64,000 bases of DNA from Faecalibacter macacae (lineage in GTDB: Bacteria > Bacteroidota > Bacteroidia > Flavobacteriales > Weeksellaceae): positions 67,196 through 131,195 of the forward strand of contig NZ_RDOJ01000001.1 in NCBI RefSeq assembly GCF_003687725.1, given 5' to 3'. Position 1 is the first letter of the stretch, and each line of letters begins with the position of its first letter. Positions 6,723 through 19,585 of this stretch are shown here, in pieces. A model generated the notes under the pieces. It worked only from the letters and a program-made list of their open reading frames with translations, was not told where the DNA came from and made no database searches. The position numbers and the translations under genes are program-made.

Positions 6723-9017
6723 ATGAATCAAGATTATATCATCCCGAATGCGTGGTCAATTATCGAAGAAGGGTTTGAAAAAGATCGTGTAAAATCGTCT
6801 GAAAGTTTATTCTCTATCGGAAACGGGGCAATGGGGCAACGTGCAAATTTCGAAGAGTTTTATTCAGGAGATACTTTTCAAGGAAGTTACATAGCCGGAG
6901 TTTATTATCCAGACAAAACAAAAGTTGGATGGTGGAAAAACGGTTATCCAGAATATTTCGCTAAAGTATTAAATGCACCAGTTTGGATCGGAATCAACAT
7001 CGAAATTAACGGTGAACAATTCGATTTAAATACGTGTAAAGAAGTTAAAAACTTCCGTCGCGAATTAAATATGCAAGAAGGTTTATTGGATCGTTCATTT
7101 GTAGCGGTTTTACCTTCAGGATTAGAAATTGAAGTTTTTGTACGTCGTTTCTTAGCTGCTGATTTAGATGAATTAGGTGCAATTAAATACGACATTAAAC
7201 CATTAAATGGTGATGCAAATATTGTCTACAAACCATACGTTGATGCTCATGTAAAGAATGAAGATGCGAACTGGGAAGAAATTTTCTGGGAATCGATTGG
7301 TTCTGAAATCAAAGGTGAACAAGGTTTTGTACAAGCACGTACATTCAAAACTCATTTCAATGTCGTAACATATATGGAGAATGCAATTTTCATCAACGGT
7401 GAAAAGCAAGCGATTACTCCATCAGCAACAAAAACAGAATGGAAAGTTGAATTTACGTACGAAGTTAATGTAAAAGCAAACGAAACAGTAACAATCCAAA
7501 AATTTGGAGGTTACGTTGTTTCGACAAATCATAAAGCAAACGAATTAGTTACTGCTGCCGAAAATGTATTAGCACAAGCCAATGCTTTAGGTTATGAACA
7601 ATTGTTAACAAACCAAAAACAAGCTTGGGCACAAACTTGGGAAATGGCAGATATCACAATTGATGGTGACGTTAAAGCACAACAAGGAATTCGTTTTAAT
7701 ATCTTTCAATTAAACCAAACATATTCTGGTAAAGATGCTCGTTTAAACATCGGACCAAAAGGTTTCACAGGTGAGAAATACGGTGGATCTACTTACTGGG
7801 ATACTGAAGCATATTGTTTACCATTTTACATGGCGACGAAGAACCAGGAAGTTGCACGTAATTTATTAACATACCGATACAACCAATTAGATAAAGCGAT
7901 TGAAAATGCTGAGAAATTAGGATTTACGAATGGAGCGGCATTATATCCGATGGTTACTATGAACGGAGAAGAATGTCACAACGAATGGGAAATTACATTC
8001 GAGGAAATTCACCGTAATGCAGCCATTGCATTTGCTGTGTTTAATTACACTCGTTTTACAGGCGATGAGTCGTATATTCCTGAAGCTGGTTTAGAAGTGT
8101 TATTAGGAATTGCTCGTTTCTGGAAACAACGTGTAAACTGGTCTACAGATAAAAAACAATACGTGATGTTAGGTGTTACTGGTCCTAACGAATACGAAAA
8201 TAATGTAAACAACAACTTCCACTCAAACTATTGTGCACAATGGTGTATGAATTATTTGATTGAGCAAGCTGAAAATGTAAAAACAAATTATCCTGAGGAT
8301 TTCGCTCGTATCGCTGCTAAAACAAACATTACTGATGCTGAATTAGCAGAAATGAAAGAAGTAGCTGCGAATATCTATTTCCCATACAGCGAAGAGTTTG
8401 ATGTTTACTTACAACAAGACGGTTTCTTAGATAAGGATTTAACTCCTGTTTCTGAATTAGCGAAAGAAGAACGTCCAATTAACCAAAAATGGTCTTGGGA
8501 TAGAATTTTACGTTCGGCTTACATTAAACAAGCAGATACGTTACAAGCATTCTATTATTTTGAGGATGATTTCTCAAGAGAACAATTAGAAAAACATTTT
8601 GATTTCTACGAACCATTAACAGTTCACGAATCGTCTTTATCTCCTTGTGTGCATTCGATTCAAGCTGCTACATTAGGTCGTATGGAACAAGCATATACCT
8701 TCTATTTAAGAACTTCTCGTTTAGATTTAGATGATTACAACAAAGAAGTTCATGAAGGATTACACATCACATCTATGGCTGGTACTTGGATGTCGATTGT
8801 AGAAGGATTTGGTGGAATGCGCGTTAAAAACGATGCATTATATTTTGAACCTCGTTTACCAGAACAATGGGAAGGATTCTCGTTCAAAATTAATTTCCGT
8901 AACCAAATCTTAAAAGTCAATGTAAATAAAGGAGAAACTACTTTCGAACTGGAAGGAACTGAACCGTTAGAGGTTTATGTTTTCGACCAAAAAGTTGTAG
9001 TGCAGCCTTCTATTTAA
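6723..9017 (+). CDS. GH65 family maltose phosphorylase
   Basis: A 764-residue cytoplasmic protein without a signal peptide. It splits maltose with phosphate into glucose and beta-glucose 1-phosphate. The (alpha/alpha)6 catalytic region contains the general acid E490 in VTGPNEYENNVNNNF. Other GH65 motifs are GGSTYWDTEAYCLPF, ECHNEWEITFEEIHRNAAIAFA and WSWDRILRSAYIKQAD. Length matches characterised maltose phosphorylases. Adjacency to pgmB and the MFS transporter supports maltose. Trehalose or kojibiose phosphorylases belong to the same family and cannot be excluded from sequence alone, but the starch-degrading neighbours make them less likely. Confidence 0.93.
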   Translation: MNQDYIIPNAWSIIEEGFEKDRVKSSESLFSIGNGAMGQRANFEEFYSGDTFQGSYIAGVYYPDKTKVGWWKNGYPEYFAKVLNAPVWIGINIEINGEQFDLNTCKEVKNFRRELNMQEGLLDRSFVAVLPSGLEIEVFVRRFLAADLDELGAIKYDIKPLNGDANIVYKPYVDAHVKNEDANWEEIFWESIGSEIKGEQGFVQARTFKTHFNVVTYMENAIFINGEKQAITPSATKTEWKVEFTYEVNVKANETVTIQKFGGYVVSTNHKANELVTAAENVLAQANALGYEQLLTNQKQAWAQTWEMADITIDGDVKAQQGIRFNIFQLNQTYSGKDARLNIGPKGFTGEKYGGSTYWDTEAYCLPFYMATKNQEVARNLLTYRYNQLDKAIENAEKLGFTNGAALYPMVTMNGEECHNEWEITFEEIHRNAAIAFAVFNYTRFTGDESYIPEAGLEVLLGIARFWKQRVNWSTDKKQYVMLGVTGPNEYENNVNNNFHSNYCAQWCMNYLIEQAENVKTNYPEDFARIAAKTNITDAELAEMKEVAANIYFPYSEEFDVYLQQDGFLDKDLTPVSELAKEERPINQKWSWDRILRSAYIKQADTLQAFYYFEDDFSREQLEKHFDFYEPLTVHESSLSPCVHSIQAATLGRMEQAYTFYLRTSRLDLDDYNKEVHEGLHITSMAGTWMSIVEGFGGMRVKNDALYFEPRLPEQWEGFSFKINFRNQILKVNVNKGETTFELEGTEPLEVYVFDQKVVVQPSI

Positions 9018-9032
9018 TAAAGGGAAAAATAG

Positions 9033-9069
9033 AATACCTTGAAGGCTCTGGCTTTCGAGGTATTTTTTT
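9033..9069 (+). terminator. Terminator of the MFS-pgmB-GH65 operon
   Basis: AATACCTTGAA pairs with TTCGAGGTATT (one G-T wobble), followed by a seven-T run. It lies 16 bp after the maltose phosphorylase stop. Confidence 0.8.
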
Positions 9070-9096
9070 ATCAGATTGTTGATGAAAGTTGATACT

Positions 9097-9162
9097 GTCA
9101 TACAGAACTCGTTTCAGGATCTGATAAAGTAGGATGAGATGTTGAAACAAGTTCAACATGAC
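9097..9162. repeat. REP-like palindromic repeat, family A, copy 1
   Basis: Imperfect inverted repeat. The left end GTCATaCaGAACTCGTTTCA is mirrored by the right end TGTTGAAACAAGTTCAACATGAC. A nearly identical copy is at 11232-11297, including the spacer AAAGTAGGATGAGATG. It has no coding capacity. Confidence 0.8.
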
Positions 9163-9174
9163 AATTTCTAAAAT

Positions 9175-9277
9175 GGCATTTAAATCTATGATGTTAAGAA
9201 ATGAAATTTAATTTTAGTCCAATAGATTTAAAGCCATGACTTTTTTGTTTCGTTTTTGTGTCAAGACAAAAATGAAA
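9175..9277 (+). repeat. Structured intergenic element, family B, copy 1 (short form)
   Basis: Outer arms GGCATTTAAATCTATGATG (9175 on) and GTCCAATAGATTTAAAGCC are near-complementary. The tail hairpin pairs TTTCGTTTTTGT (9248-9259) with ACAAAAATGAAA (9266-9277) around the loop GTCAAG. The inner hairpin seen in copies 3 and 4 is absent. It ends 23 bp before the next start codon. The upstream loop-complement reads CATGAC here, one mismatch to the loop. Confidence 0.75.
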
Positions 9278-9300
9278 ATAAATAAACAAACATTACGAGA

Positions 9301-11169
9301 ATGAAAAAACTATTTATACTAACCTCTTTACTTTCTTCCTTCGCTTTTGCGCAAATACAAAAAGTTGAGCCAATGTTTTGGTGGAAAGGAATGAAAAATC
9401 CGGAACTTCAAATTTTAGTTTACGGAAAAGATGTAAGTAAATATAACATCGAATTATCAGATCAAATTCAGATTAAGGATATCCAAAAAACGGAAAATCC
9501 GAATTATGTTTTTGTGACTATTAATACAAATCAAGTCAATAAATCTTCATTTAAAATCAACATCAAAAATAAAAACAAAGTTGTTGATTCATATACTTAC
9601 GAATTAAAAGAGCGAAATCCAAATTCAGCCAATCGTTCTTCATTTTCTTCAAAAGATGTGGTGTATTTAATTATGCCAGATCGTTTTGCAAATGGCGATG
9701 AAAGTAATGATTCAAAGAAAGAATTAATTGATAAAGCAGATCGTTCAATTCCGGATAGCCGTCATGGAGGAGATTTACGTGGTATCATTAATAATATCGA
9801 TTATCTTCAAAACCTTGGAGCAACTGCAGTTTGGTTAACGCCTGTGAATGAAGACAACGAAAAGAAGCATTCATACCACGGATATGCTCAAACCGATTTA
9901 TATAAAATTGATGGTCGCTACGGAACAAACGAAGAATATCGTGAATTATCTCGTGAATTAAACAAACGTGGAATGTACTTAATCCAAGATTATGTAACCA
10001 ATCACTGGGGAATTTCACATTGGATGATTCAGGATTTACCATCTCAAGATTGGATTCATCAATTTTCTCCGGCAGAAGGCGGGGAAGCGAAAGGTTTCAA
10101 AAGATCAAACTACCGTACAACAACTCAAATGGATGTAAATGCATCAGAAATTGATAAAAAAGGTGCGTTAAATGGTTGGTTTGATTATACGATGCCAGAC
10201 ATAAATCAAGCAAATCCATTGGTCTTGAAATACCTTACGCAAAATGCAATTTGGTGGATTGAGTATGCTGAATTAGGAGGAATGCGTGTTGATACATATC
10301 CTTACAACAACAAGGAAGGAATGGCAACTTGGGTAAAAGCTATTACAAACGAATATCCAAATTTTAATGTCGTAGGAGAAGCCTGGATGTATTCGCCAGC
10401 TCATATTTCGTATTGGCAAAAAGATTCGAAAATCGCAGAAATGACGGGATACAATTCTAATCTTCCATCAATAATGGATTTCACATTATTTGCTGAAATG
10501 CCGAAAGCTTTCAATGAAGAGGAATCTTGGGATAAAGGAATGATTAAAATTTATAATTCATTTACGAGTGATTTCTTGTATCCAGATGTAAATAATATGT
10601 TCGTTTTCTTCGAAAATCATGATACTGAACGTTGGAACGAAATCTTTAATTCTGATCCGAAAGCATACAAATTAGCAACAACTTTAATCGGTACTGTTCG
10701 TGGAATTCCACAAGTATATTATGGTTCTGAAATCGGAATGCGAGGAGATAAAAATACTGGAGGAGATGCTGCAATTCGTCAAGATTTTCCTGGAGGATGG
10801 AAATCGGATAAGCAAAATGCATTTACATCAACTGGAAGAACTGCCGAGCAAAAAGAATATCACGATTTTACAGCTAAGGTTTTTAATTGGAGAAAAAATA
10901 AAGAAGTAATCCATACAGGAAAAACAAAACATTACATGCCTGAAAAGAATGTATATGTGTATTTCCGTTACAATGCAAACGAATCTGTAATGGTTATTTT
11001 AAATTCTAATACAGAAAAACAAACTTTTAAATTAAATCGTTTTGCAGAATCTATCAACGGATTTAATTCTGGAAAAGATATTATTTCTGATCAAGTATTA
11101 CCAATTTCTTCAAAAGGAGAAATCACAATTGAGGGAAAATCATCAATGATTATTGAATTGAAGATGTAA
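9301..11169 (+). CDS. susA: Periplasmic GH13 cyclomaltodextrinase/neopullulanase, SusA-like
   Basis: A 622-residue protein with a Sec signal peptide ending FAFAQ. An N-terminal cyclomaltodextrinase immunoglobulin-like domain follows (about 20-110, VEPMFWWKGMKNPELQILVYG). The GH13 barrel has nucleophile D331 (MRVDTYP), acid/base E360 (VVGEAW) and transition-state D441 (ENHDTER), and a C-terminal beta domain closes the protein. Length and architecture match Bacteroides SusA, which trims imported maltodextrins in the periplasm. It has no lipobox and no type IX sorting tail. Family A and B repeats sit directly upstream. Confidence 0.92.
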   Translation: MKKLFILTSLLSSFAFAQIQKVEPMFWWKGMKNPELQILVYGKDVSKYNIELSDQIQIKDIQKTENPNYVFVTINTNQVNKSSFKINIKNKNKVVDSYTYELKERNPNSANRSSFSSKDVVYLIMPDRFANGDESNDSKKELIDKADRSIPDSRHGGDLRGIINNIDYLQNLGATAVWLTPVNEDNEKKHSYHGYAQTDLYKIDGRYGTNEEYRELSRELNKRGMYLIQDYVTNHWGISHWMIQDLPSQDWIHQFSPAEGGEAKGFKRSNYRTTTQMDVNASEIDKKGALNGWFDYTMPDINQANPLVLKYLTQNAIWWIEYAELGGMRVDTYPYNNKEGMATWVKAITNEYPNFNVVGEAWMYSPAHISYWQKDSKIAEMTGYNSNLPSIMDFTLFAEMPKAFNEEESWDKGMIKIYNSFTSDFLYPDVNNMFVFFENHDTERWNEIFNSDPKAYKLATTLIGTVRGIPQVYYGSEIGMRGDKNTGGDAAIRQDFPGGWKSDKQNAFTSTGRTAEQKEYHDFTAKVFNWRKNKEVIHTGKTKHYMPEKNVYVYFRYNANESVMVILNSNTEKQTFKLNRFAESINGFNSGKDIISDQVLPISSKGEITIEGKSSMIIELKM

Positions 11170-11170
11170 T

Positions 11171-11226
11171 GTCACGCAGTGCTTGTCGAAGTGTTATTTT
11201 AAGATTCTTCGACAAGCTTAGAATGA
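11171..11226. repeat. REP-like palindrome, family A variant
   Basis: Perfect 11-bp arms GCTTGTCGAAG (11181-11191) and CTTCGACAAGC (11207-11217) with a 15-nt loop. The flanks GTCAC and GAATGA resemble family A ends. It begins two bases after the susA-like stop, so it could also help end that transcript, although no T-run follows. The half-site recurs at 18111-18127. Confidence 0.7.
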
Positions 11227-11231
11227 AAAAC

Positions 11232-11297
11232 GTCATTCTGAACTCGTTTCAGAATCACATAAAGTAGGATGAGATGTTGAAACAAGTTCAAGATGAC
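11232..11297. repeat. REP-like palindromic repeat, family A, copy 2
   Basis: GTCATTCTGAACTCGTTTCA at the left and TGTTGAAACAAGTTCAAGATGAC at the right form a long imperfect stem. It is nearly identical to 9097-9162. A degraded third half (CCTGAATTTATTTCATGATC and AAATGAATTCAGCTTGA) continues to about 11385. The 418-bp gap 11170-11587 contains only these repeats and the family B copy. Confidence 0.8.
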
Positions 11298-11395
11298 AAT
11301 TACAAGACATCAATTACAAGACATCCTGAATTTATTTCATGATCACATAAAATGAGTTGAGAAGCTAAAATGAATTCAGCTTGATAAATTAAAAC

Positions 11396-11562
11396 GACAT
11401 CCGATTTGTAGACGAGAGTCAATTCATTGAGAGAAACGAAAAAATGTTTACTGAGCGATAGCGAATGATTTAAACATTTTAGTGAAACGAAATTAAAATT
11501 GACCGTCGAAAATCGAAGTCTTGACTTTTTTGTTTCGTTTTTGTGTCAAGACAAAAATGAAA
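11396..11562 (+). repeat. Structured intergenic element, family B, copy 2 (divergent)
   Basis: Outer arms GACATCCGATTTGTAGACG and CGTCGAAAATCGAAGTC are complementary but differ in sequence from the other copies. The inner stem AAAATGTTTA/TAAACATTTT (11441-11450, 11471-11480) is perfect. CTTGAC (11520-11525) complements the tail loop GTCAAG. The tail hairpin TTTCGTTTTTGT/ACAAAAATGAAA spans 11533-11562. It ends 25 bp before the next ATG. Confidence 0.75.
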
Positions 11563-11587
11563 ATTAAAATAGTAGAACTAAATACAA

Positions 11588-13693
11588 ATGAAAAAATTAA
11601 CATCAACAATATTTACCCTTTTAGCATTAGGATTACTTAATGCACAAACAATCGAATCACCTTCGAAAGAAATCAAGGTGAATTTCGAATTAACTAAAAG
11701 TGGACAACCATCGTATTCGGTAACATATAAAGGAAAAGAAATTGTAAAACCATCAACTTTAGGTTTCGTTTTAAAAGATGCCGAAGCGTTAGAAAACGGA
11801 TTTACAATTGCTAATTATTCAACGAAATCTGTAAATGAATCGTGGCAACCAGTATTGGGAGAATACAAAGAGATTAATGATATTCACAACGAAGGGACTT
11901 TTCAATTAACACAAAATTCTACGAACAGAAACATCAATGTAACGTTCAAAGTTTATGATGAAGGAGTTGCTTTTCGTTACGAATTTCCAAAGCAAGATAA
12001 TTTAAATTACTTTGTTGTTAAACAAGAGAAGACACAATTTAATTTAACGGGAGATCATAAAACTTTTTGGCTTCCAGGTGATTTTGATACGCAAGAATAT
12101 ACATTTATCGAATCTAAAATTTCAGAAATTAATCATGCGGATATTGATATGAATAATGGAATTGGAGTAAAATCTATAGCAAAACCAAATTCAGTTCAAA
12201 CGCCATTTCAGATGAAAACAGCTGATAATTTATACATCAATATTTTTGAAGCTGCTACGGTAAATTATCCAGTAATGCATTTAGAATTTGATAAAAATAC
12301 CTATCAATTTCAAGCTCATTTAGCACCAAATGCAATCGGAGATTTAGCGTATTTACAAGCGCCTTTCAATTCGCCTTGGCGCACAATTATGGTATCGGAT
12401 GATGCACGTGATATTGTAGGTAAAGGTCCACAAATGATTTTGAATTTAAATGAACCATCAAAAATTGAAGATACTTCTTGGATTAAACCAATGAAATATG
12501 TAGGAATTTGGTGGGAAATGCATGTTGGAATTTCTACTTGGGATCGTCAAGGAACACAAAATGCACAAAATCAAGTAGGGCAGGAGAAGATTAAATTTCC
12601 GCACGGAGCTACAACAGAAAATACAAAACGTTACATCGACTTTGCTGCTAAACATGGATTCGACGGAGTGTTAGTAGAAGGATGGAACGAAGGTTGGGAA
12701 GATTGGTACGGAAACTGGAAAGAAGATGTATTCGATTTTACAACGGCTTATTCAGATTTTAATATCAAAGAAGTTTCAGATTACGCCAAAGCAAAAGGTG
12801 TAAAAATGATTATGCACCACGAAACATCTGGTTCGGTTACAAACTACGAACGTCGTTTTGATCGTGCGGTTGAAGTGATGAAAGAATATGGATATCCAGC
12901 GGTAAAAACTGGTTATGTTGGTCGTATTATTCCTCGTGGAGAATACCACGATGGTCAAGCGATGGTGAATCATTTCAATTGGACTGCTGAGCGTTTTGCT
13001 GAGAATAAAATCTTAGTTAATACACACGAAAGTTCTCGTCCAACAGGATATCACCGTACATATCCAAATTATATTGCTGCTGAAGCAACACGTGGTAACG
13101 AGTTCAATGCGTGGAGTTATGGAAATCCACCAGCGCATGAAACAATTTTACCTTTTACTCGATCTTTAGGTGGACCGATTGATTATACACCAGGAGTTTT
13201 AGAAACAGAAATGAAGGTATATAATGTTGGTCGTGATACTCGAATTCATACAACTTTAGCGAAGCAATTGGCTTTATATGTAACGATTTATTCGCCTTTA
13301 CAAATGGCTGCTGATTTGCCAGAGAATTACGATAAATTTTCAGATGCATTTCAATTTATTAAAGATGTTGCTTTAGATTGGGATGATACAAAATATTTAG
13401 AAGCTGAGCCTGGAGATTATTTAACAGTTGCGCGTAAAGCGAAAGGAACTGAAAATTGGTTTGTAGGAGCAATTACAGATGAAAATTCTCGTCAATCAGA
13501 AATTAAATTAAATTTCCTAACGCCAGGAAAATCTTATGAAGCGATCATTTATCAAGATGCTAAAAATGCACATTGGGAGAAAAATCCAAAAGCATACGAA
13601 ATCAAAAAAATGAAAGTAAATGCTAAATCTAAAATTAAATTGAATTTAGCTGCAGGTGGTGGAACAGCAATCTCTATTATTCCAAAGAATTAG
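11588..13693 (+). CDS. susB: GH97 alpha-glucosidase, SusB-like paralogue 1
   Basis: A 701-residue protein with a signal peptide (MKKLTSTIFTLLALGLLNAQ), an N-terminal beta-supersandwich (about 20-285), a central TIM barrel and a C-terminal beta domain. Glutamates in MHHETSG (E412), VNTHESSRPTG (E481) and TRGNEFNAW (E505) keep the 69- and 24-residue spacing of the catalytic residues E439/E508/E532 of Bacteroides SusB, so it should be an inverting alpha-glucosidase. Compared with paralogue 2, the segment after E481 (YHRTYPNYIAAEATRGNEFNAW) departs from SusB, suggesting a different linkage or chain-length preference. It is predicted periplasmic. Confidence 0.92.
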   Translation: MKKLTSTIFTLLALGLLNAQTIESPSKEIKVNFELTKSGQPSYSVTYKGKEIVKPSTLGFVLKDAEALENGFTIANYSTKSVNESWQPVLGEYKEINDIHNEGTFQLTQNSTNRNINVTFKVYDEGVAFRYEFPKQDNLNYFVVKQEKTQFNLTGDHKTFWLPGDFDTQEYTFIESKISEINHADIDMNNGIGVKSIAKPNSVQTPFQMKTADNLYINIFEAATVNYPVMHLEFDKNTYQFQAHLAPNAIGDLAYLQAPFNSPWRTIMVSDDARDIVGKGPQMILNLNEPSKIEDTSWIKPMKYVGIWWEMHVGISTWDRQGTQNAQNQVGQEKIKFPHGATTENTKRYIDFAAKHGFDGVLVEGWNEGWEDWYGNWKEDVFDFTTAYSDFNIKEVSDYAKAKGVKMIMHHETSGSVTNYERRFDRAVEVMKEYGYPAVKTGYVGRIIPRGEYHDGQAMVNHFNWTAERFAENKILVNTHESSRPTGYHRTYPNYIAAEATRGNEFNAWSYGNPPAHETILPFTRSLGGPIDYTPGVLETEMKVYNVGRDTRIHTTLAKQLALYVTIYSPLQMAADLPENYDKFSDAFQFIKDVALDWDDTKYLEAEPGDYLTVARKAKGTENWFVGAITDENSRQSEIKLNFLTPGKSYEAIIYQDAKNAHWEKNPKAYEIKKMKVNAKSKIKLNLAAGGGTAISIIPKN

Positions 13694-13740
13694 ATTTGAT
13701 TGTCAGTTCATAATCTTTTGAATTGAGTGAGAATTTAAAT

Positions 13741-13906
13741 GGCATCTAAATCTATGACGTTAAGAAAATAAATGTAATGAAGGAAAAGAATGAATTAGTG
13801 AGCGGTAGCGAATCATTTAATTCATTCCCGAAATGAAATTTATTTTTAGTCTAATAGATTTACAGCCTTGATTTTTTGAATACTTTTTTATCAAGAAAAA
13901 AGTATT
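13741..13906 (+). repeat. Structured intergenic element, family B, copy 3 (long form, variant tail)
   Basis: The left end is GGCATCTAAATCTATGACG. The inner stem GAATGAATTA/TAATTCATTC (13788-13797, 13818-13827) is perfect, and the right outer arm is AATAGATTTACAGCC. The tail stem AATACTTTTTT/AAAAAAGTATT (13879-13889, 13896-13906) is perfect but unlike other copies. Its loop ATCAAG still matches the upstream CTTGAT (13867-13872). It ends 50 bp before the next ATG. Confidence 0.78.
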
Positions 13907-13929
13907 GAATAATCATCATCCAAAATTAA

Positions 13930-16125
<2,196 letters not shown>

Positions 16126-16136
16126 TTTTGAGTGAT

Positions 16137-16177
16137 GAGTATTAAGATGTTTTTTCTTAATACTCAAAACTTTTTTT
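16137..16177 (+). terminator. Terminator after the second GH97 gene
   Basis: Perfect 11-bp stem GAGTATTAAGA/TCTTAATACTC with a T-rich loop, then AAAAC and seven Ts, starting 12 bp after the stop. A B element follows directly. Confidence 0.7.
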
Positions 16178-16188
16178 ATTAGAAAAAT

Positions 16189-16356
16189 GGCATCTAAATC
16201 TATGGCGTTAAGAAATTAAATAGAATGTAGGACAAGAATGAATTAGTGACCAAAGGGAATCATTTAGTTCATTCCCGAAATGAAATTTAATTTTAGTCCA
16301 ATAGATTTATAGCCTTGACTTTTTTGATTCGTTTTTGTGTCAAGACAAAAATGAAT
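16189..16356 (+). repeat. Structured intergenic element, family B, copy 4 (long form)
   Basis: The left end is GGCATCTAAATCTATGGCG. The inner stem GAATGAATTA (16236-16245) pairs with TAGTTCATTC (16265-16274) through one G-T wobble. CTTGAC (16314-16319) complements the tail loop GTCAAG. The tail stem ATTCGTTTTTGT/ACAAAAATGAAT spans 16327-16356 and differs from copies 1 and 2 by a compensated outer base pair. It ends 21 bp before the amylase start. Confidence 0.78.
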
Positions 16357-16377
16357 AATTATAAAAAACTTAAATCA

Positions 16378-18039
16378 ATGATCAAAAAAATATTCGGAAT
16401 AAGTTTAGTTGCAGGAATGTTATTAACTTCTTGTTCAACGTCAAAAATTGGAGCAACACAAGAAATTCCAACCTCAGAAAATCAACCATTCGTTTGGAAT
16501 GCAGCTAATGTATATTTCTTATTAACAGATCGTTTTAATAATGGAGATACAACGAACGATGTTAATTACGGCAGAACTGATAAAACTGCTGTTTTAAGAG
16601 GTTTTGAAGGTGGTGATATCAGAGGTATTATTCAAAAAATAAACGAAGGTTATTTTACAGATTTAGGTGTTAATGCCATCTGGATGACTCCAATAGTAGA
16701 ACAAATTAAAGGATCTGTAGATGAGGGGCAAGGTGCAACTTATGGTTTTCATGGATATTGGACAAAAGATTGGACTTCATTAGACAAAAATTTCGGAACT
16801 GAAAAAGACTTACATGAGTTAGTTCAGAAAGCACATGAGAAGGGAATCCGAATCATGTTAGATGCAGTAATTAATCACACTGGTCCTGTAACAGAATTGG
16901 ATGAGGTTTTTCCTGCGGATTGGGTTCGTGTTACTCCGCAATGTACGTATGATTCGTATGTAAATACAACAGCTTGTACCTTAGTTAAGAATCTTCCAGA
17001 TATTTTAACAGAGTCTGAAAATGATGTAACGCTTCCTCTACAATTATTAGAGAAATGGCAAAAAGAAGGTCGTTTAAAGCAAGAAATTACGGAATTAAAT
17101 GAATTCTTCACAAAATATAATTTGCCGAAAGCACCAAAATATTACATCATGAAATGGTTATCAGATTATATTCGTGATTATGGTATTGATGCATATCGAG
17201 TAGATACAGTAAAACATACGGAGGAAGATGTGTGGAAAGTATTTGCTCAAGTTTGTAAAGATGCTTTGGCTGAGTATAAAGCTAAAAATCCAAATTTAGC
17301 TATCGATAATAACGAATTCTTTTTGTTAGGAGAAGTTTACAATTACACAATTAATGAAGGACAGATGTTCTCGTTTCCTGATAAGAAAGTAAACTATTAC
17401 GAGAATGGATTTGATGCTTTAATTAATTTTGATTTGCGTTCATCTCAAGAAGAAACGAATCAACAATTATTTGAAAGATACAATGATATCATTCAAAACG
17501 AGATGAAAGGTAAAACGGTAATGAATTACATTTCTTCTCATGATGATGGTTCGCCTTATGATAAAGAGCGTAAGAATACTTGGGACGCAGGAACAAAATT
17601 ATTGTTGACACCTGGGATGTCTCAAATTTATTATGGTGATGAAATTGCTCGTCCTTTAGTAGTAAATGGAGCAGATGGAGATGCGAATCTTCGTTCGTTT
17701 ATGAATTGGGAAGATATTAAACCAAATTCTGAAACAGAGTCTTTATTAAATCACTTTCAAAAATTAGGTCAATTCCGTCGTAATCATCCGGCTGTTGGTG
17801 CAGGAGTACAAACTGTTTTAAAAGCAGAACCATATATTTTACATAGAAAGTATAAAGAGGATGAAGTAATTATTGCTTTAGATTATTTTAGAGAACAAAA
17901 AGTGATTGAAGTTTTTAATCTTTGGGCAGAAGGAACTAAAGTTCGTGATGCTTATTCTGGAGAGATTTCAGTTGTAAAGGATGGAAGAGTTGTGCTTTCG
18001 TCTACAAGTGAAATTGTGTTACTTGAAAAGATTAAATAA
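16378..18039 (+). CDS. GH13 alpha-amylase family lipoprotein (periplasm-facing candidate)
   Basis: A GH13 enzyme with a lipoprotein signal (MIKKIFGISLVAGMLLTSC). The barrel shows YFLLTDRFNNGD, DAVINHTGP, nucleophile D276 (AYRVDTVKH), acid/base E319 (LLGEVYN) and D389 (SSHDDGS). I place the start at 16378, giving 553 residues. An upstream reading frame exists from 16315, but its first codons are translated from the repeat and would bury the signal peptide. The sequence after Cys (STSKIGAT) lacks the acidic export signal, suggesting the periplasmic side. A two-cysteine insert (VTPQCTYDSYVNTTACTL) is reminiscent of MalS-type periplasmic amylases. Exact specificity is unknown. Confidence 0.88.
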   Translation: MIKKIFGISLVAGMLLTSCSTSKIGATQEIPTSENQPFVWNAANVYFLLTDRFNNGDTTNDVNYGRTDKTAVLRGFEGGDIRGIIQKINEGYFTDLGVNAIWMTPIVEQIKGSVDEGQGATYGFHGYWTKDWTSLDKNFGTEKDLHELVQKAHEKGIRIMLDAVINHTGPVTELDEVFPADWVRVTPQCTYDSYVNTTACTLVKNLPDILTESENDVTLPLQLLEKWQKEGRLKQEITELNEFFTKYNLPKAPKYYIMKWLSDYIRDYGIDAYRVDTVKHTEEDVWKVFAQVCKDALAEYKAKNPNLAIDNNEFFLLGEVYNYTINEGQMFSFPDKKVNYYENGFDALINFDLRSSQEETNQQLFERYNDIIQNEMKGKTVMNYISSHDDGSPYDKERKNTWDAGTKLLLTPGMSQIYYGDEIARPLVVNGADGDANLRSFMNWEDIKPNSETESLLNHFQKLGQFRRNHPAVGAGVQTVLKAEPYILHRKYKEDEVIIALDYFREQKVIEVFNLWAEGTKVRDAYSGEISVVKDGRVVLSSTSEIVLLEKIK

Positions 18040-18069
18040 TTTTCATTTTAAATTATATTTTATAATGAG

Positions 18070-18130
18070 AAGCTGAAATAAATTCAGCTTGACAAAATGG
18101 ATATTGTCATTCTGAGTTTGTCGAAGAATC
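18070..18130. repeat. REP-like palindromic halves, family A remnant
   Basis: AAGCTGAA-ataaa-TTCAGCTT (18070-18090), then GTCATTCTGAGTTTGTCGAAGAATC (18106-18130). This is the same half-site type as 11171-11226 but without its partner arm. Confidence 0.6.
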
Positions 18131-18137
18131 TAATAAA

Positions 18138-18181
18138 AGTCTGAAACTTTATTCGTATTTGATTCAAGACAAAAATGAATA
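18138..18181 (+). repeat. Family B element, degenerate tail only (copy 5)
   Basis: TATTCGTATTTG (18150-18161) against CAAAAATGAATA (18170-18181) gives a 12-bp stem with one mismatch and one wobble around a TTCAAG-containing loop. The outer arms and inner hairpin are missing. It ends 27 bp before the next start codon, the same position as in complete copies. Confidence 0.6.
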
Positions 18182-18208
18182 ATTAGAATAAAAGGAAAAA
18201 ATATAAAC

Positions 18209-19585
18209 ATGATAAAACAATTTTTAGCTTTAGGATTAATAGCTGGTTTATTCTTAACAAGCTGTTCTAAAAAAGAAGATACTTCAGAAACTACTACTGA
18301 ATTAGCAGAAGGTTCATTCAAACCTTTTACAGCAGATGAAGCAGAAACTGCAGTTATTTACGAGGTAAATGTGCGTCAATTTTCTCCAGAAGGAACGTTT
18401 GCTGCGGTAACAAAGGAAATTCCTAACATTAAAAAATTAGGAGTAAAGATTCTTTGGTTAATGCCAGTTCATCCAATTGGAGTTGAAAAACGTAAAGAAG
18501 GTTTAGGTTCATATTACTCGATTAGTGATTATCGTGGAGTGAATCCTGAATTTGGTACTGCTGAAGATTTAAAACAATTAATAGAAACTGCTCATGCTAA
18601 CGGAATTTATGTTGTTTTAGATTGGGTAGCGAATCATACGGCTTGGGATCATCCTTGGATGAAATCGAATCCAGATTTCTATGAAAAGGACGAAAAAGGA
18701 AACTTTATTTCTCCATTTGATTGGACGGATGTTGTTTCTTTAGAATACAATAATCCAGCACTTCGTAAAGCAATGATTGCTGATATGAAGTATTGGTTAG
18801 ATGAGTTCAAAATTGATGGTTTCCGTTGCGATATGGCACACATGGTTCCTACAGATTTCTGGGCAGAAGCTAAAAAAGAATTAGCAAATGGTCGTGAAAT
18901 TTTCATGTTAGGTGAAACAGAAGAACCAGAATTATTAAAGAACGGAGTTTTTGATTCGGCTTATGGATGGGAATTACATCACATCATGAACGATATCGCT
19001 AACGCTAAAAAAGATGTTTCTGCAATTGATGTTTACATGGATAGTATTCAGCATAAATGGGAGAAAGATGATTATAAAATGTTATTTACTTCTAACCACG
19101 ACGAAAATTCTTGGGCAGGCACAGAGTTCGAAAGAATGGGAGATGCTGTGGAAACTTTCGCAGCTTTAACGTATGCATTACCATCGGTTCCTTTAATTTA
19201 TAACGGGCAAGAAGAAGATTTTAATCGTCGTTTAAAATTCTTCGTTAAAGATTCTATTGATCGTAATCCTAATGCGAAGATGCGTGGAGTTTATGAAAAA
19301 TTAGGAGATTTAAAGAATAATAATGAAGCGTTTAATGGAGCTAAAAATGCTGGTTCTTACGAACGAATTAAAACTTCGGATGATAAATCTATCTTAGCGT
19401 TTAAACGTAAGAAAAATTCATCAGAAGCTTATTTTGTTGGTAATTTTACAAAAGAAACAAAAGAGGTTACATTACCAATTACTGGAGAGTTTGTAAACTT
19501 CATGACAAAAGATGCAATTACTTTAGATGCAACAAAAAAGGTTTCTTTAAAACCTTGGCAATACTATATTTTAGTGCAGAAATAA
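18209..19585 (+). CDS. GH13 alpha-amylase lipoprotein, surface (SusG-role) candidate
   Basis: A 458-residue lipoprotein (MIKQFLALGLIAGLFLTSC) with a compact GH13 barrel: IYEVNVRQFSPEGTF, DWVANHTAWDH, nucleophile D208 (FRCDMAH), acid/base E236 (LGETEEPE) and D298 (SNHDENSW), then a short C-terminal beta domain. The residues after Cys are SKKEDTSE, a charged, acidic stretch like lipoprotein export signals that direct Bacteroidota lipoproteins to the surface. It is thus the best SusG-like candidate, cutting starch outside the cell before SusCD uptake. It is shorter than Bacteroides SusG and has no visible starch-binding insert, so the role is inferred. Confidence 0.88.
   Translation: MIKQFLALGLIAGLFLTSCSKKEDTSETTTELAEGSFKPFTADEAETAVIYEVNVRQFSPEGTFAAVTKEIPNIKKLGVKILWLMPVHPIGVEKRKEGLGSYYSISDYRGVNPEFGTAEDLKQLIETAHANGIYVVLDWVANHTAWDHPWMKSNPDFYEKDEKGNFISPFDWTDVVSLEYNNPALRKAMIADMKYWLDEFKIDGFRCDMAHMVPTDFWAEAKKELANGREIFMLGETEEPELLKNGVFDSAYGWELHHIMNDIANAKKDVSAIDVYMDSIQHKWEKDDYKMLFTSNHDENSWAGTEFERMGDAVETFAALTYALPSVPLIYNGQEEDFNRRLKFFVKDSIDRNPNAKMRGVYEKLGDLKNNNEAFNGAKNAGSYERIKTSDDKSILAFKRKKNSSEAYFVGNFTKETKEVTLPITGEFVNFMTKDAITLDATKKVSLKPWQYYILVQK

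Follow-up and report, generated by a model that had tools for sequence, protein, structure and literature searches.

A structured Bacteroidota repeat in gaps between genes of Faecalibacter macacae and its putative role as an RNA barrier within operons

Our analysis concerns a structured repeat that lies, as four copies and a tail-only remnant, before five consecutive starch-hydrolase genes of Faecalibacter macacae, in a window of 64,000 nucleotides that was analysed as a whole (NCBI RefSeq assembly GCF_003687725.1, contig NZ_RDOJ01000001.1, positions 67,196 to 131,195 of the forward strand). Judged by their sequences, the copies belong to a family of structured, non-coding repeats of the Bacteroidota. 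We tentatively read this family, with a probability of about 0.4, as a structured repeat that proliferates and forms part of operon mRNAs, where it would probably act as a putative intercistronic RNA barrier. Where its tail ends about 20 nt before a start codon, the element would be read through within the operon mRNA. A 3'-to-5' exonuclease would then meet the A/U-rich tail first and the long hairpin behind it, and tail and hairpin together might shield or demarcate the upstream part of the mRNA in the manner of repetitive extragenic palindromic (REP) sequences, which would result in unequal expression of neighbouring genes. Alternatively to such a barrier against 3' exonucleases, the element might be a processing mark in the operon mRNA. 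Many guts, soils and waters are dominated by Bacteroidota and, to our knowledge, the unequal protein output from their multi-gene operons is poorly understood. With a tail that is unchanged in several classes of the phylum and a mostly sense position between genes, the element would be an obvious and testable player in it, and how it spreads in the absence of a known transposase is a question in itself.

Fold of the element and its spread through the Bacteroidota

Covariation among copies establishes that one strand of the element folds into a long bulged hairpin, the head, with outer arms that mostly read GRC...GYC, followed by a tail that comprises a CTTGAN hexamer, a U tract and a second hairpin, whose loop (N'TCAAG) is complementary to the hexamer. 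Among 22 copies of the own genome, both partners have changed at 18 of 31 pairs. An alignment of 137 copies (136 distinct) drawn from the genus and further genera raises this to 30 of 36 pairs, with standard pairs in 95.5% of the cells versus at most 56.3% when the partner strand is slid. The plan proposed in the earlier note (outer arms, inner hairpin, hexamer, and an A/T hairpin with a complementary loop) is thereby backed by covariation. The folding strand is the element's own, because G-U outnumbers A-C on it (64 versus 17 in 52 representatives of less than 85% identity), and folding of the other strand should give the opposite ratio. Pairing of hexamer and loop is well supported by sequence variation, mainly by one varying pair (UA 45, AU 43, CG 27, UG 2, unpaired 8), the remaining hexamer positions being almost invariant. 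Taken alone, this helix is paired in 94.4% of the cells (slid control, at most 47.3%) with 84 double-changed cells; a less clear measure is its 4 double-change pairs versus 2.1 in shuffles, a value reached by 18 of 500 shuffles. The two tail helices have no base in common and could therefore form either a pseudoknot or a switch.

Head and tail change at different rates in the copies compared site by site. Between two genomes, the orthologous copies at a pirin-like site have 16 changed positions out of 126 in the head and none out of 42 in the tail; the starch copy at 11396-11562 and its counterpart in the relative G012 likewise differ at 7 of 126 head positions and 0 of 42 tail positions. Over three species, six head pairs have changed at the pirin-like site, two of them compensated, three kept by G-U and one broken. 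In five copies between PaaD-like and enoyl-CoA hydratase genes (families checked in one record), four pairs are double-changed, nine have one-sided changes that keep the pair and seven show some break; the identity of the tails in this set proves nothing, because the set was picked by the exact tail.

The family is abundant in the own genome, where blastn returned 39 matches for a query of subfamily B1 (E <= 1) and 20 for one of subfamily B2 (E <= 0.01), two lists that overlap in shared tail matches. A covariance model built from the 22 own-genome copies (R1) gave 36 matches at E <= 1, of which 33 at E <= 0.01. Across the genus, 12 of 14 genomes (own included) hold 6-48 matches each and the other two none, and in a sample of the order matches occur in 106 of 395 genomes, from 37 of 109 genera (E <= 0.001), figures that convey presence or absence and no copy numbers, with just seven candidates scored per genome. 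A search for the exact tail (42 nt, one free base) retrieved 90 stretches from the genome collection, with 85 matches within 80 listed loci, and found it in four Bacteroidota classes, among them Galbibacter, Sphingobacterium, Flammeovirga and Carboxylicivirga; such a search cannot gauge how fixed the tail is, and the genus itself has further tail types. The heads of these phylum-wide loci differ. Many nevertheless end alike, in a helix that closes on the C of CTTGAC, often from GRC..CT to CA..GYC, and their outer arms scored only mildly above control when tested (below 0.05 in 15 of 77 cases; mean 15.2 versus 12.1). Exact tails also occur in metagenome bins labelled Helarchaeota and Saccharospirillaceae (L297, L306), contigs that are probably mis-binned Bacteroidota. 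The exact tail has no match in the viral contig collection, and nine stretches of that collection (L320-L328) carry the CTTGAA-type tail that is frequent in genus g21; blastn of one copy against plasmid and phage collections gave no match.

Gain, loss and orientation between genes

Comparison of related genomes establishes that intergenic gaps both acquire and lose elements. The sites tpiA|prmA, lepA-like|beta-lactamase-like, helicase and GH25-like (gene labels are our own assignments unless family-checked) carry the element in none of the four relatives read (E < 0.2), and at the pirin-like site it is present in G003 and G012 and absent from G008 and G009. The helicase site holds two tandem copies in the own genome and an array of another repeat in G003. 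REP-like repeats also occupy filled sites, so that exact insertion boundaries are unreadable. Of the two explanations offered in the earlier note, insertion into tolerated operon gaps gains support from these empty sites.

The other, a tuning of the starch locus, is unsupported. The first GH13 gene of the starch operon is found in 11 of the 14 genomes of the genus, in all 11 with the surrounding operon, some of them one hydrolase short. Good elements lie inside it in four: the window genome, G003, G005 (one full element and two fragments) and G012. G009 has a single weak fragment (E 0.0057), and six genomes have no element there at E < 0.1, including G002 and G010, which have 34 and 44 matches in other places. 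On these counts a starch-specific signal was rejected, the operon being element-free even in element-rich relatives. Judged by eye, the other subfamily occupies all of the first three starch gaps in G003 and one of three in G012. In the third gap the comparison is valid for the upstream side only, because GH31, and not GH97, is the family of the third G005 hydrolase and of its similar counterparts in G003 and G012; the last two gaps of these three genomes are too short for an element (18-25 bp).

Where the neighbouring genes point the same way, elements mostly lie in sense. In a non-redundant set from the genus and other sampled species, co-directional gaps hold 36 sense, 16 antisense and 7 mixed arrangements (binomial p 0.008 for 36 versus 16), next to 21 convergent and 19 divergent gaps, mixed orientations counted in. 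Phylum-wide, 62 of 85 sites have both flanking open reading frames (ORFs, called on length alone), and these comprise 38 sense, 5 antisense, 10 convergent and 9 divergent cases (binomial p 2.5e-7 for 38 versus 5, some orthologous sites being counted repeatedly). An inert repeat, as the earlier note had put it, should show no orientation bias elsewhere; the bias speaks against inertness, yet antisense copies are equally intact. A fixed insertion orientation relative to replication was rejected: with dnaA taken as the origin and the opposite point as the terminus, G003 has 8 plus and 2 minus copies in one half and 15 plus in the other, and G005 has 12 plus and 14 minus, then 11 plus and 5 minus.

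Several points weigh against our reading as an RNA barrier. The excess of G-U arises in DNA too and does not separate RNA from single-stranded DNA, and the model used to choose and align the copies is itself somewhat biased towards G-U. In the hexamer/loop helix, 10 further pair types are no improvement on the 9.9 of the shuffle control; the rarer hexamer classes (TGTC, AGAG, AGTC, AGCG) pair with their own loops by 3-4 bp only, and they lend the pairing no support because this match is mostly no better than that with the loops of others. Because the copies are related to one another, cells and sites cannot be counted as independent observations. Finally, the pirin-like copy in which pairs were compensated in place lies antisense to the genes on both sides, and antisense copies in general match sense ones in intactness (a fraction of 0.944 of the 36 pairs in 19 antisense copies versus 0.935 in 39 sense copies, p 0.74), which speaks against strong selection of each copy as mRNA.

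This intactness in antisense would be natural for a non-autonomous mobile DNA repeat, either of REP/REPIN type (REP doublet forming hairpin) or derived from IS200/IS605, whose folded single strand is recognised by an HUH (Y1) transposase; its effects on genes would be by-products, and antisense copies would be purged by selection. We regard this explanation as possible, if rather unlikely. The single folding strand agrees with it, as do the direct and inverted clusters that copies form between genes at short spacing, and the lack of target-site duplications is what this class predicts: the 136 copies used, out of 137, gave no such signal, with a mean flank match of 3.62 versus 3.67 in shuffles. 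According to one study, the Bacteroidetes TnpA_REP subclass 2.6 has atypical flanking structures (PMC6006769). Against it, Y1_Tnp occurs in 6 of the 14 genomes of the genus, being present in G004, with 0 copies, and absent from G012, with 48; no convincing element lies within 1.5 kb of any of the 7 Y1 loci, the single hit having E 0.035; and the orientation to replication in G003 and G005 is inconsistent. Y1, IS110 and reverse transcriptase were each rejected as the resident mover, since none of these families tracks copy number across the 14 genomes (other enzymes were not searched for), and no autonomous parent with the same ends was seen in the loci read, in which transposases beyond these three families were likewise not searched for. 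On the 5' side the flank is rich in A, and position -1 is a pyrimidine in 133 of 136 copies. Multiplication of the element probably uses its own folded strand as substrate, in the form of either RNA or single-stranded DNA.

A bolder version of the barrier reading, unlikely in our estimation, would make the element a phylum-wide mobile class of intercistronic RNA with a fast-evolving hairpin head and a slow pseudoknotted tail, which spreads in sense through operons, copies itself via its folded strand and sets the relative dosage of neighbouring genes. Triple helices exist among RNA structures, and the tail might contain a U.A-U one, since the U tract adjoins the A-rich strand of the stem.

Sense bias would also be expected of an RNA that acts in cis as a leader or attenuator, regulates the next gene at the level of translation or transcription and is fixed by selection at particular operons. 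The gap between the PaaD-like and enoyl-CoA hydratase genes would be a candidate, with an element in five records, diverged heads and partly compensated pairs. In three of these records the tail ends 19-21 nt before the hydratase start as called from ORFs, and the remaining two have an ATG at the corresponding position. In addition, 29 of 31 sense sites tested lack an upstream intrinsic terminator. We nonetheless hold such control to be improbable: the downstream genes seem unrelated, the distance from tail to start ranges from 11 to 1220 nt (median 92 over 47 sites with the downstream gene in sense), 19 of the 62 phylum-wide sites are convergent or divergent, and the starch genes are element-free in 6 of 11 genomes and carry only a weak fragment in a seventh. 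It is very improbable that the head hairpin and U tract stop transcription as a variant intrinsic terminator, despite the succession of a long hairpin, CUUGAN and a U tract and an upstream gene in sense at 48 of 62 sites: the U tract begins 5 nt past the stem, tails some 20 nt before start codons would leave scant room for a new promoter, and the canonical form (GC stem, T run within 2 nt) was rejected, as the copies do not have it and a terminator scan of 8900-18400 detects none of them.

Other features of the clusters and their surroundings were seen in the genus and beyond. Tandem arrays with a near-constant spacing of ~257, 374 and 298 bp occur at L097 4282-7879 and L105 7673-10115, some copies being apparently truncated (by eye). 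At L198, L199, L190, L191 and L195, from other genus members, orientations alternate and many neighbours lie ~60 bp apart, resembling bacterial interspersed mosaic elements (BIMEs). By eye, an IS110 transposase gene at L104 4960-6200, which lies between two element copies, seems to interrupt a repeat of REP-like type and not the element itself, and several clusters at L101, L106, L109 and L112 adjoin genes resembling those for sugar nucleotides and polysaccharides. Elements or exact tails also lie in gene gaps of apparent integrative elements (L114 90-4260, L240, L252, L233, L257, L301), found in the genus and in distant Bacteroidota with proteins that are similar by eye; at L114, a tyrosine integrase and an HTH_17 gene are followed by MNYIKHL-type and MINYQK-type proteins without Pfam match.

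Copies in the starch locus

All copies in the window lie on the plus strand. The first (9175-9277; 85.5 bits with the covariance model) belongs to subfamily B1, has its inner part deleted and carries the hexamer CATGAC (9235-9240) and the loop GTCAAG (9260-9265). The second (11396-11562; 146.4 bits) represents subfamily B2, with CTTGAC at 11520-11525 and GTCAAG at 11545-11550. The third and fourth are again B1: one at 13741-13907 (168.5 bits), of a different tail type, with CTTGAT (13867-13872) and ATCAAG (13890-13895), the other at 16189-16356 (164.9 bits), with CTTGAC (16314-16319) and GTCAAG (16339-16344). The remnant at 18138-18181 has retained the tail hairpin and lost the CTTGAC hexamer; it was matched by blastn (E 6.4e-5, G000:C1:85343-85375) and not by the covariance model. 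The genes that follow are, in order, GH13, GH97, GH97, GH13 and GH13, with start codons 23, 25, 50, 21 and 27 bp from the tail ends, and upstream of them lie MFS, HAD hydrolase and GH65 genes, before which the model found zero elements at E up to 0.5. The earlier note thus located the copies and remnant correctly, in the orientation of the genes, and was right about the spacing (about 21-50 bp) and about the absence before the MFS, pgmB and GH65 genes. The tail hairpin pattern TTTTTGTGTCAAGACAAAAA occurs four times at up to 3 mismatches versus 0.12 expected in shuffles, and the hexamer pattern CTTGACTTTTTTG, with 11 occurrences at up to 2 mismatches versus 6.75 expected, is not clearly over chance. 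Two copies have fold z-scores of -4.3 and -4.9, and 11396-11562 has a weaker one of -1.6.

Some of these gaps are shared with a second, unrelated REP-like palindromic repeat of the GTCATTCTGAACTCGTTTCAGAATC type, which lies upstream of the element (9097-9166, 11232-11301, 11320-11389, 18096-18137). A terminator-like hairpin stands at 16136-16166, past the second GH97 gene and ahead of the element, so that the GH13 gene after it may have a separate transcript.

Comparison with known systems

The element resembles conserved structured Bacteroidota elements in Rfam such as Flavo-1 and yet matches none of 4227 families at the gathering score, a search that covered the window copies and 17 phylum-wide loci. 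The four gathering hits in the window are all tRNAs, and the three weak matches at E up to 1 fall outside the copies. No description of the element was found in the open-access literature, in which its tail sequences were likewise unmatched.

ERIC, NEMIS and RUP are described as non-coding structured intergenic repeats of 100-200 nt resembling miniature inverted-repeat transposable elements (MITEs) (PMC3733652). The element shares their size range, structure and position adjoining genes, and differs in that no target duplications were found, that one exact tail accompanies varied heads across classes of one phylum, and that a hexamer pairs with a loop. A DDE-type MITE would have a target-site duplication, of which the 136 copies used gave no sign. 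The attC sites of integrons are bulged hairpins of variable sequence and conserved shape that alternate with genes. The element is similar in all three respects, but no R-box ends were seen, and an integron-like cassette array was rejected: the starch operon is element-free in six genomes and, because G011 keeps five hydrolase genes in the window order without elements, the genes need not be cassettes.

Compared with REP, BIME and REPIN sequences and their REP-associated tyrosine transposases (RAYT, TnpA_REP), the element is longer (~165-200 nt versus 20-65 nt), its hexamer is paired to the loop of the tail hairpin, the aligned copies show CTTGAN and no GTAG/CGTC tag, and within the genus it neither flanks nor is otherwise tied to Y1 genes. 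Like them, it forms many palindromic intergenic copies in direct and inverted clusters and folds on one strand. REPs of E. coli protect upstream mRNA, and the element, by analogy, might do the same between the genes of Bacteroidota operons.

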